Position numbers and translations under genes: made by a program. Shown piece after piece: positions 522 through 41,872 of a stretch of DNA of 64,000 nucleotides (its first letter is position 1; each line of letters opens with the position of its first letter). Location of the stretch: the NCBI GenBank assembly GCA_023078555.1, contig CM041200.1, positions 7,990,807 through 8,054,806 of the forward strand, in the 5' to 3' direction. This DNA is from Ulva prolifera. Lineage: Eukaryota > Chlorophyta > Ulvophyceae > Ulvales > Ulvaceae. The notes below the pieces were generated by a model. It saw nothing but the letters and a program-made list of their open reading frames with translations. It had not been told where the DNA came from and made no database searches.

Positions 522-728
522 GTGATTGCGCAACTGAGGGGCGAGCTGCCGCTGCCGTGGGAGCAGGACACGGACGAAGGCAACCGTAACAAGCTGGGCG
601 CGTTCAAGGGGCCGGTGCTGCAGCTGCTGCAGCGCGACCCAGCGCGGCGCGTGTCAATGCGCCGCTTCCACGACGTCTGCTCCCGGCTCTTCGCGAGCCG
701 CACAGCAGAGGCCCAGGAGGGCGCATGA
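522..728 (+). CDS. Receptor-like kinase paralogue, C-terminal exon (gene truncated by the window edge)
   Basis: This is the last exon of a protein kinase gene whose other exons lie left of the window. The acceptor is TGCGCAG ending at 521, and the exon then reads VIAQLRGELPLPWE in phase 0 and stops at TGA 726-728. The exon is homologous to the final exons of the two complete copies (18206-18382 and 34236-34508). All three share the core LPLPWE...GxFKGPVLxLLxRDPxRRxSMRRF, which is kinase subdomain XI with the invariant arginine (RDPARR). The C-terminal tail (about 12 residues, ending EAQEGA) differs from the other copies. This copy is on the plus strand, while the other three are on the minus strand. 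Confidence 0.8.
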   Translation: MIAQLRGELPLPWEQDTDEGNRNKLGAFKGPVLQLLQRDPARRVSMRRFHDVCSRLFASRTAEAQEGA

Positions 729-2000
729 GCCGCTGTGTGGGTGTAATTACAACCACAAGTGTATGTGTGGTCGATTTGTTCCGCATGATCCGCCATGCGA
801 GGCGTTCAGGCATGTCCAATGCTGCCTCTGTGCCGTCACACCCGTGACCGTTCCACGACGTTCAATGTGTGTGACGGCGGTCCTATCTGCAGCAACATCT
901 TCCCGCAAAGCATACGTATGCTTGTGCGGTGATGATGCAGAGGCATGCGCATGCATTGAGCTTGAGCTGAACCATCAGGGCCGGGTTCTGGATGCCCATT
1001 ATGGAGGGCTTTTGCTTCGCCTTAGCCGGGCTTATGAATGCTGTGGCCCCGACACAGCTCGTCGAGGTGTCTCAAGCCGTGGCTGAATCGTTGGCCGATG
1101 TGGCCCTCGTGTTTTCCCAATGACAATGCACTGCTTCTCATCTATATGCCTCATGACCCTGGTGACCCACAGGAGTCTCTGCCGAATGTGGCACGGACTG
1201 CCATGCTGTTGTTTGGTAAGGGCAAGGGCATATTGTGATCAGGGTACCCAATGCATGGCCTCGGAGAGATGACCGATACAGAAGTGTATATACGTGATTA
1301 CAATGCTCAGCAGGTGATCGTGTTGGCCATCTCATATATGCAAGTGATATGTGAAGCGTGGATGTTTGCTGCTGGGCCTGGAACTTTACTGTCTGGGTTC
1401 CTGCTGACATGCTGCGGCGGGTTGTGTGTGCCTTAAAAATCCATTTCCAGCTTGCTTGCAGAGGCAGGTACGCAAAGTGTAGAGATTGCGAGTGCCTTGG
1501 GTGAACATGGTTCACTGTATCACACACACCCTTGGCCCTACCACTCAGGACTGCATGGCCAACACACTGAGAGCAAGGCCAGGTAGCTGGGTTGTGGATG
1601 GTATTGCTTGATCCCAAGTGCCCATTTGTCTTCCCATAGACAGGGTTGCTGAACCACAGTGAGGCCAGATTTTAGCTGACTCACGGAGATTTTAGCTGTG
1701 AGAGAGCGTCACTTGAAATATTTCTGATATTCACTGATATCGCATAAAAAACCAGTTAGCAATGATTTCGTTCTACATATGATTCCTTGAAGCAGTAATG
1801 TTGATGTACATGGCAAGATGTGTTTGGCAGGGACGGTGACCTACCACATCTGACATCTTCTGGGACTGAGACATCTTGGTCAGCCATGAGTTATATATGA
1901 TGTAACACAGGCTAGCTGGGCTCGTGAATGCTGTAGCCGCAACACACCTGGGTTGCGTGCCAGTGGTTGCGTGCGTGTGTGGCGCCCCGATTTGGGTCCT

Positions 2001-40200: not shown

Positions 40201-41872
40201 CTGGTGAGAGGCACGAGCGCGACCGCACGCGAGCCCCCGGACGGCGAGACGTGAACCCCAACGTCCGTTAGGTACAGCCGCAGGTCAGTCGTCCCCGCAC
40301 ACGCCTCCCAACCCGGCTGTTTCCCCCCTGGCACCTTGAACAGTTGCTCATGCGGCTCCCGCCGGAGCGCCCCTACGTAGCCGGTGCTGAGCAGGAGGGC
40401 CTGGCGGGTGGGCAGCGCGAGCAGGGAGGCGAAGTAGAGGTTGTGCAGCCACAGGTGGCCGTTCTGCGCGAACAGCGCTTTCGAGTCGGTGAGGACGAGA
40501 CACTGGTTGGGCTTGAGGGCCGGGGGCGGGCCGGGCATATGGGCCTGCCACGCCTCCAGGACATCCTCCGGCACCGGGCCAGAGCAGTTACCCTGCAGAG
40601 TGGCGTGGTGAGTTGCGGGGGGTGGGGGGCATCAAACGCCGGGCCGCCGGTCCTTGCCGCAGGCTCCATGATCGCCGGATCGGGGGTCAAATATGTGCAT
40701 ACTGGCAGATCAGTTTTCAGGATGTACATCGAAGACAGGAGCACAACAGCTTTCCGCAATGTTGTATGCATGCAGCACATGCATGCTCAGGGTGCTCACC
40801 CGGACCGACCGCGTGCTGCTCGACACGTATCCCGTGTGTGACACAAACTCCCGGCCCCACTTCGTGAGGTCCCGGTTGTTGGCACCGCTGGACACGCAGG
40901 CCTCCACGAGGGGGTTGGCCTTGCGCTGCAGGGTAGACAGGTCGAGGTGCTGCCGCAGCTCCACGTCCACGGCCTGCTCCTCCAGCGCCGCCTGGAACTG
41001 CTCTGCAGTAGAGACGACCACAGCCTTGGAGAGGGGGGCCGCAGCCGGAGCTGGAGAACCCGTGGGGGTGTTGGGGGCCACGTCAGCTGGGGGCGGTGCC
41101 GTGGCGGCCGTGGGGCGTGCTGGGGCGGCCAGGGTCGGGGCTGGAGTGGGCGGTGGGGGTGGCGCAGCGGCTGGGGGTGCTCTAAAGGCCGGGGGCCTTG
41201 CCGCGGCGGCCGGGGGGCTTTCTGTTGTGGCAGAAGCGGTCCGGGGAGGGCGTGCGGAGGTAGGGGGAGGGCGCGCGGCTGCCGGAGCGCTCTCAGCGGC
41301 TGCATCAGGCGCCTGCGCCACTGGAGCAGCGGGAGATTCAGCGTCAGTGGGAGCAGTACGGATAGCATCTGCATCAGAGTGACGACAGCGCGCAGTCAGA
41401 GGTCACAGGCACATGCATGCTCCGCCCAGTGACTGCTGCCTGTGTGCTACGTGGTGTGTAGACCCGGTCGGCGGTGACTTACGCTGAGAACAAACCAAGG
41501 CTGTGCAATCGAGCTGGCGGGTTGCCGCGCCGTGGTGCGCGTCAGCATCGGCCAAAAGCTCATGCACCAACAGAATATCCATGCTACATGAAAAACCTGC
41601 CAAAAGCATCATGTCCACCGCTCACAAATGGCAGCGTGTAGCTTGGATACCTCTTTCGGTCCCGGCAATCGAGATGTCAGTATCCGAATGGACGCGGCAA
41701 CAGAATCATGGATACATGTATACGCACAAACAGGAAACAGAGGCGGGAGGGCACCTGCGTTGGCCAGCTGGGGCTGGGGTAAGGAGGCCGGGGATGGGGC
41801 GCGGCTGCTGGCGGGCGGTGGAAGCGGCGGTGGGGCGTTCATACGCTGCCGTGACTGAGCAGGAGCCGCCAT
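34236..41872 (-). CDS. Transmembrane receptor-like protein kinase with beta-helix-like ectodomain, copy 3
   Basis: Exons in reading order are 41872-41755, 41368-40800, 40592-40172, 39798-39251, 38905-38498, 38184-37737, 37450-37058, 36800-35422, 35339-35013 and 34508-34236. They join in phase to 1627 codons plus stop. The N-terminus is Pro/Ala-rich with no signal peptide, so an upstream exon may exist (an acceptor-like CATAGACAG lies near 41905). The ectodomain (about 205-625) has STAEQFQAALEEQAVDVELR, LKPNQCLVLTDSKALF and FSNCLFRDISIHSHELFD. The membrane segment is at about 626-648. The kinase has RRQGGQAVVQFARDE, FAIKFFL, FRDEVAIY, IVHRDLKPAN (HRD at about 1447), DFG at about 1468, AAPEVV and DAWAVG. 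A disordered insert of about 340 residues precedes FLPQAEAVCQ and the hinge EKGESLYDW. The tail is longer than in copy 2 and ends in repeat R3. Poly-C tracts follow two donors (38497 and 37057). Confidence 0.8.
38279..38318 (+). repeat. Dispersed repeat R2, short copy in an intron
   Basis: It has CTGACAAGGACAAAGTCCGG and GCGGCGGGTACCACCGCAG. It lies in the intron before exon 38184-37737 of receptor copy 3, antisense to the gene. Confidence 0.55.
38463..38494. repeat. G32 (sense C32) directly after a 5' splice site
   Basis: In the sense direction of receptor copy 3 the exon ends ATGCAG and the intron starts GTG followed at once by 32 C. A similar tract of 38 (39021-39058) lies in the preceding intron, and a shorter G-rich one (37031-37048) follows the donor at 37057. 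Confidence 0.9.
39021..39058. repeat. G38 (sense C38) in an intron of receptor copy 3
   Basis: This run of 38 guanines on the plus strand lies in the intron 39250-38906, between the last ectodomain exon and the membrane exon. Confidence 0.95.

Follow-up and report, generated by a model that had tools for sequence, protein, structure and literature searches.

On one chromosome arm of the green seaweed Ulva prolifera, some 40 loci in a 1.5-Mb array probably encode a family of single-pass receptor kinases that carry a likely solenoid ectodomain and expanded by tandem duplication in this alga, with glycans as the likeliest candidate ligands. Four members (genes A to D) lie in or reach into the window, the 64,000-nucleotide stretch analysed here (C5:7990807-8054806 of an 88.9-Mb genome in 44 contigs). 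An earlier note, made from the letters of the window, had described four related genes within 42 kb, and they are where it placed them: B, A and C on the minus strand and D on the plus strand, from the start ATG of B at 41872 to the last exon of D, which begins at 522. Its assignment to a green alga also stands, as the plastocyanin encoded in the window (two exons joined) is identical at 98 of 98 residues to PDB 7PCY, which we take to be the plastocyanin of Enteromorpha (now Ulva) prolifera; the source is that species or one very close to it. The note did not extend to the array, of which these four genes form only a small fraction. The exon order and phases, the membrane span, the kinase motifs and the duplication, as predicted from the DNA, are the firm parts of the reading; that these make one protein, with its ectodomain on the extracellular side and in a solenoid fold, is supported.

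Open frames of the window were compared all against all, which brought out groups of related frames on the minus strand and a single plus-strand exon, and the receptor genes were then spliced by hand from homology between copies and from splice sites (Table 1). Ectodomain, membrane span and kinase follow one another in the models of A and B as had been described. Their intron phases are identical (0,1,0,1,0,0,1,1,0,0), in keeping with the descent by gene duplication drawn earlier from conserved phases. All 18 acceptors in A and B end in TGCAG, and 11 of the 18 donors read GTGCG. Exon 1 is weak in both genes; the two are unlike each other, and neither has a signal peptide. Gene D is seen in the window only as its last kinase exon, as the note had said. 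The remaining exons lie upstream of the window, at about 3021 to 9565 of the neighbouring C5 locus L009, and encode an ectodomain, a membrane span and a kinase; they were read exon by exon in 10 kb of upstream sequence and not as one spliced model.

Scans of the whole length found exactly one hydrophobic span in each of A, B and C, followed by basic residues, which agrees with the single span claimed for the three longer genes; D has one in the parts read. The kinases of A and B both hold the Lys (AIKFF), the Glu (RDE), HRDLKP, DFG and APE, so that the two full kinase domains reported before are present, and the motifs support kinase competence in these two genes. The D kinase has VKFF, HRDLKP and DFG, with PPE replacing APE. 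The glycine loop of the kinase is degenerate (RRQGGQAVV). Against Pfam PF00069 (Pkinase) the B kinase scores 76.3 bits with a cut-off of 31.7, compared with only 27.5 bits for the PK_Tyr_Ser-Thr profile; the score above the cut-off, together with the Lys, Glu, HRD and DFG, places it in the eukaryotic protein kinase superfamily. An insertion separates the Lys/Glu part from KFLP/RFLP, with 328 residues in A, 369 in B and 39 in D, and those of A and B are 41% identical with a ratio of nonsynonymous to synonymous substitution rates (dN/dS) of 0.41. With the A/B insertion removed, the nearest PDB kinases are of RSK, PknB and CaMK types among the best 60 of 1355 matches, and none of these 60 is named as a receptor-like kinase (RLK) or IRAK, a placement by match and not by tree.

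Table 1. Predicted receptor genes and their parts, in positions of the window.
Feature	Position	Strand	Exons	Content
Gene B	34236..41872	-	10: 41755-41872 (uncertain), 40800-41368, 40172-40592, 39251-39798, 38498-38905, 37737-38247, 37058-37450, 35422-36800, 35013-35339, 34236-34508	Ectodomain, membrane span, kinase; 1648 aa; no internal stop
Gene B, exon 3	40172..40592	-		Ectodomain (GNCSGPV...SVSLFAK); first rungs of probable beta-solenoid
Gene B, exon 4	39251..39798	-		Ectodomain (SVFTGMTG...SMRR); predicted 26-residue strand repeat in first 59 residues
Gene B, exon 5	38498..38905	-		Stalk, single membrane span (VLVFVVSLLAAVIAALVVF), basic juxtamembrane stretch
Gene B, kinase N-lobe exon	35422..36800	-		AIKFF Lys, RDE Glu, 369-residue insertion before AAKFLPQ
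Gene B, catalytic exon	35013..35339	-		HRDLKPAN, DFG, APE
Gene A	18206..25720	-	10: 25618-25720 (uncertain), 25103-25416, 24176-24602, 23265-23806, 22422-22838, 21592-22180, 20637-21011, 19171-20426, 18641-18967, 18206-18382	Ectodomain, membrane span, kinase; 1508 aa; no internal stop
Gene A, catalytic exon	18641..18967	-		HRDLKPGN, DFG, APE
Gene C	10098..13152	-	4: 12601-13152, 12099-12480, 10888-11768, 10098-10544	Ectodomain, one membrane span, no kinase; 753 aa; no internal stop
Gene D, last kinase exon	522..728	+		VIAQLRGELPLPWE...EGA; stop TGA

The same pairing of ectodomain and kinase recurs across the genome, where match counts are lower bounds: at least 155 stretches matched the kinase, at least 95 the B ectodomain and at least 125 the D ectodomain. 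Clustering 98 of the 125 D-ectodomain matches, together with four matches in A and B from the B-ectodomain search, gave 57 ectodomain loci; the 27 matches excluded were nearly all of exon 2 only, the rest being short pieces of the end of exon 4. A same-strand catalytic exon follows 2.4-7.7 kb downstream at 46 of the 57 loci, counted with 58 of the 102 listed kinase matches that cover this exon, including all 40 in the C5 array. The array itself (C5:7.20-8.73 Mb) holds 41 ectodomain loci, 36 of them with a same-strand catalytic exon 2.4-6.2 kb downstream, and the five unpaired loci include gene C. By a cruder count, which used the 95 B-ectodomain matches and all 102 listed kinase matches, 74 of 95 ectodomain matches had a same-strand catalytic exon within 12 kb downstream (45 distinct catalytic exons) and seven had one on the other strand. 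Five paralogue loci (L036-L040) all have ectodomain exons 3 and 4 and then kinase exons on the same strand; they were picked for holding both kinds of match, and so speak for the order and not for how often it occurs. L036 and L039 each hold the ectodomain and the membrane span in one open frame. From this arrangement in the sequence, we read tandem duplication as what produced the gene family.

The ectodomains evolve faster than the kinase, as the note had also found. Between A and B the ectodomain is 64% identical, compared with 91% for the kinase N-lobe and 79% for the kinase core, and dN/dS values (NG86, from a single pairwise alignment, given without a test statistic) are 0.42, 0.08 and 0.29, respectively. 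The less conserved parts are the proline-rich N-terminus (39% identity, dN/dS 0.51), the stalk (43%, 0.32), the membrane span (31%, 0.36) and the linker from span to kinase (40%, 0.45, with a dS of 1.4); the ratios in the parts with 31-43% identity are rough because dS there is 1.4-2.3. Identity to B across the copies is 59, 38 and 29% for the ectodomains and 80 and 60% for the kinases with the A/B insertion cut out. All of the A/B ratios are below one, which favors coding sequence throughout, linker included, and these comparisons support purifying selection on the receptor genes. Variable ectodomains on a conserved kinase would be expected if the copies differ in ligand and share their output, and the proline-rich stalk fits such a receptor set as well.

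For the ectodomain, a short beta-solenoid is the likely fold, and a right-handed one of pectin-lyase type is our best guess within the solenoids. A rung motif, h-x-h-x-[ND]-h-x-h (where h is loosely hydrophobic, and some overlapping sites were counted), was found 58 times in nine paralogue sequences compared with 7.8 expected from shuffles, and once in the cytoplasmic part of B compared with 1.2 expected. Residues 1-59 of the AlphaFold model of B exon 4, built with the A and C rows, are strand and turn (block mean predicted local distance difference test score, pLDDT, of 50-59), and the strands at 2-8, 20-24, 27-33, 46-50 and 53-59 form a 26-residue repeat. Foldseek compared this model with the PDB and returned 24 matches at E<=10, all of which we take to be beta-solenoids (SV2 luminal domains, PfbA, a capsule tail spike, pectate lyases, CAP1 and an ice-binding protein). 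The beta-helix named in the earlier note is likely but unproven, being supported by the rung motif and the predicted 26-residue repeat and having no significant sequence or fold match.

The side of the membrane on which the ectodomain lies is suggested by distant paralogues, the only members in which a signal peptide was recognized, by eye. At C1:4.348-4.356 Mb (L045 and L013) this start (MLLLINVYVILLLSSIASVSG) comes shortly before the family's HLD motif, followed in order by the GNC exon, a frame that combines beta-like rungs with a membrane span, and a kinase with HRDIKPEN. Five further matches reach into this stretch (C1:4365146, C1:4325479, C2:4986793, C2:4983179 and C2:4953854), the first being a near-identical duplicate and the second carrying one internal TGA. 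Because of this signal peptide-like start, the ectodomain is probably on the secreted side in the C1 branch and, by homology, probably extracellular in A-D. More groups of related kinases or ectodomains were seen at C1:4.32-4.37 Mb, C1:1.51-1.52 Mb, C2:4.95-5.08 Mb and C7:0.56-0.72 Mb. Both L013 and L016 have a membrane span-like frame upstream of the kinase, so that the superfamily as a whole may number more than one hundred genes.

Taken as a receptor, each protein would present a secreted N-terminal domain, most likely a right-handed beta-solenoid of about five rungs, in the cell wall space. A proline-rich stalk would lead to one membrane span, a long low-complexity linker and a cytosolic Ser/Thr-type kinase. 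Binding of a ligand, or clustering of ectodomains, may bring the kinases together and switch on phosphorylation, and the downstream pathway is likewise a conjectural element of the model. The likeliest ligands would be polysaccharides or glycans outside the cell, coming either from the wall of the alga itself or from microbes associated with it, and tandem duplication would have given rise to the roughly 40 loci on one chromosome arm.

Several results weigh against this reading, the first of them concerning the fold. Pfam searches of the ectodomains of A-D at E<=10 returned only sub-threshold pentapeptide repeats (best E 0.092) and MHYT, and the only match to PDB sequences was a chance one (E 0.76). 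Rung enrichment is support and not proof, since the motif was written after reading the sequences, which are homologous, and some sites overlap; an hhalign self-comparison of the nine-sequence ectodomain profile found no significant internal repeat. Structure prediction, which the note had put forward as a check, gave the strands described above for exon 4 of B, but at low confidence (pLDDT 38, predicted template modeling score 0.34), and for exon 3 two helices and five strands at a similarly low pLDDT of 37. None of the 24 Foldseek matches reached E<=0.001, and their TM-scores by query were below 0.2; a low-confidence model gives meaningless matches, and the shared fold class of the 24 is weak evidence with such a model.

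Other points on the same side concern topology, selection and the joining of exons. None of the modeled N-termini of A, B, C and D has a signal peptide, and the search upstream of these genes secured no signal-peptide exon. The two similar span-like frames of L013, at 504 (LIVGLGGGALLLAIAALLAAWWFCFRK) and 830 (VMAVGLACGSVLLVVALLLAAWWFCFRK), lie 326 bases apart before one kinase (C1:4.353 Mb) and would mean two spans if both were used; they are perhaps a duplicated, mutually exclusive alternative exon. Gene-average dN/dS between A and B gives no sign of positive selection, including in the ectodomain. That the exons of A and B belong to one transcript we infer from genomic splice models. Gene C and ten other ectodomain loci (11 of 57) had none of the 58 catalytic matches used within 9 kb. 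A catalytic exon also lies upstream of 36 of the 95 ectodomain matches, so the tandem order by itself accounts for some of the pairing.

What the ectodomains bind is where the strongest alternatives arise. The family may be a receptor set of immune type for the surface molecules of microbes, with the array growing by duplication as resistance clusters do, though we would place this short of an even prospect. Ulva shape depends on bacterial signals, and the size of the tandem array, the resemblance of the kinase-less gene C to a receptor-like protein and the greater divergence of ectodomains than of kinases all fit such a set; however, the A/B ectodomain has a gene-average dN/dS of 0.42 and not above one. 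Alternatively, by analogy with plant wall-associated kinases and THESEUS/FERONIA, the proteins may monitor or hold on to the wall of the alga itself (ulvan, glucuronan, xyloglucan), an idea that we advance tentatively and on which we would not wager at evens. Beta-solenoids are common polysaccharide binders and proline-rich stalks occur in wall-anchored proteins, features that the solenoid-like ectodomain and proline-rich stalk would match. About 40 diverging loci, however, seem more than a wall sensor needs. Wall polymers of Ulva are described in the literature (PMC8307928). In Pfam searches of the ectodomains of A-D at E<=10, no galacturonan-binding, EGF or malectin domain of the WAK/CrRLK1L type was found, and no polysaccharide lyase family matched the ectodomain in Pfam or among PDB sequences.

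It is highly unlikely that ectodomain and kinase are separate neighboring genes that alternate along the array, with the joined models being artefacts of splicing by eye. The joined models do rest on genomic sequence alone, gene C has an ectodomain and span and no kinase, 11 of the 57 ectodomain loci are unpaired, exon 5 of A and B opens with ATG, and alternating tandem genes would produce the same pairing. Against this, phases agree across every join in A and B, dN/dS is roughly 0.45 in the exons that link span to kinase, L036 and L039 fuse ectodomain and span in a single open frame, and exon 5 of C and D starts without Met. A role in gamete or self recognition is very improbable. The diverse tandem receptors do share one chromosome arm, but by two weak tests the only two RWP-RK matches found in the genome (C2:10011412 and C3:5358203) fall outside the array and the excerpted text of the Ulva partita mating-locus paper (PMC5601483) has the word kinase once, in the title of a reference.

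Linkage of the array to mating type was considered and is unsupported, the RWP-RK matches being on other contigs. Ulva partita RWP1 is reported, in the part of that paper at hand, only from the minus mating type (mt-) locus (PMC5601483), which, together with the two RWP-RK matches, suggests that the assembly could be mt+.

Gene C fits the receptor-kinase family in its ectodomain and span. The note had seen a full kinase in only two of the three longer genes, and the third, C, indeed lacks one: tblastn with the B protein at E<=1 gave no minus-strand match below 10 kb. About 20 bases past its stop codon begins a 1.5-kb (GT)n array (8587-10078; about 750 copies, 99% matches), which might mark where gene C lost its kinase half. 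The product may be a kinase-less co-receptor or decoy, or the gene may be a truncated duplicate.

We also observed a short interspersed element between receptor-gene exons, around GGCAGCCC-AG-AATGCTGCAC (21373-21398 and 34600-34625, both on the minus strand); inspection by eye showed stretches like it in L009, near 5110-5160 and near 9165-9205. Its core has 17 exact matches genome-wide compared with none for the reversed pattern. Elsewhere in the window are a full-length U2 spliceosomal RNA gene (56704-56898, plus strand, 127.6 bits), an open frame with the membrane-transport domain PF03547, presumably of auxin-efflux type (52702-54186, plus strand), and an open frame with a D-2-hydroxyacid dehydrogenase domain (60386-61408, minus strand).

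Published RLK counts follow the RLK/Pelle clade, so a family built on another kinase could have been missed. A 2024 review credits Ulva mutabilis with a single RLK and, in the part of its table seen, the chlorophytes with one to about four each (PMC10868138). The sections consulted of the Ulva compressa genome paper count MAPK, CDPK, CBLPK and CaMK and leave membrane receptor kinases unmentioned (PMC9266709). None of the titles and abstracts listed in literature searches reported this Ulva family; the U. mutabilis genome paper, the likeliest place, may mention it. Searches for relatives of the ectodomain confirmed none among 24 IMG/VR and 64 GTDB pattern matches, the sole eukaryote searched being this genome. 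An independent expansion of receptor kinases may have occurred in a green seaweed, and the broader proposition, that green seaweeds built up a large receptor-kinase system of their own, apart from land-plant RLK/Pelle, by fusing a beta-solenoid to a different kinase and then multiplying the fusion in tandem, strikes us as evenly balanced. A review of green multicellularity describes large receptor-kinase families that arose independently in brown algae, in plants and in holozoans as a proposed step to complex multicellularity (PMC4299406). If true, the Ulva family would be a further independent origin of a large receptor-kinase repertoire, after land plants, animals and brown algae, and dozens of membrane-spanning kinases with an ectodomain unmatched in Pfam would fill the chlorophyte RLK gap. 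The array would also offer specific genes as candidates in asking how Ulva senses its wall, or the bacteria on which its shape depends; Ulva is transformable, and knockouts may be feasible.

Among known systems, plant RLK/Pelle proteins, including wall-associated kinases and CrRLK1L, share with the predicted Ulva proteins an ectodomain, one span, a cytosolic Ser/Thr kinase, large tandem families and faster-evolving ectodomains. In contrast to them, the Ulva ectodomain has no leucine-rich repeat (LRR), lectin, malectin, EGF or LysM family in Pfam, and the kinase is nearest, among the best 60 PDB matches, to the RSK, PknB and CaMK types; its membership of the RLK/Pelle clade is at most putative. 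With right-handed beta-helix, pectin-lyase-like proteins (pectate lyases, PfbA and tail spikes) the ectodomain shares an Asn/Asp rung-like motif and the predicted 26-residue repeat, but here without a significant sequence or fold match and joined to a kinase. Gene C resembles plant receptor-like proteins (RLPs) in having an ectodomain and span without a kinase, but unlike them it may be a truncated duplicate, with the (GT)n array just past its stop. Brown algae offer the remaining comparison: a figure legend whose coverage includes them names LRR receptor kinases (PMC8307928), and the Ectocarpus receptor kinases are said to be a family that arose independently in a multicellular alga (PMC4299406). 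Like the brown-algal receptor kinases, the Ulva family belongs to a multicellular alga, though of a different lineage.

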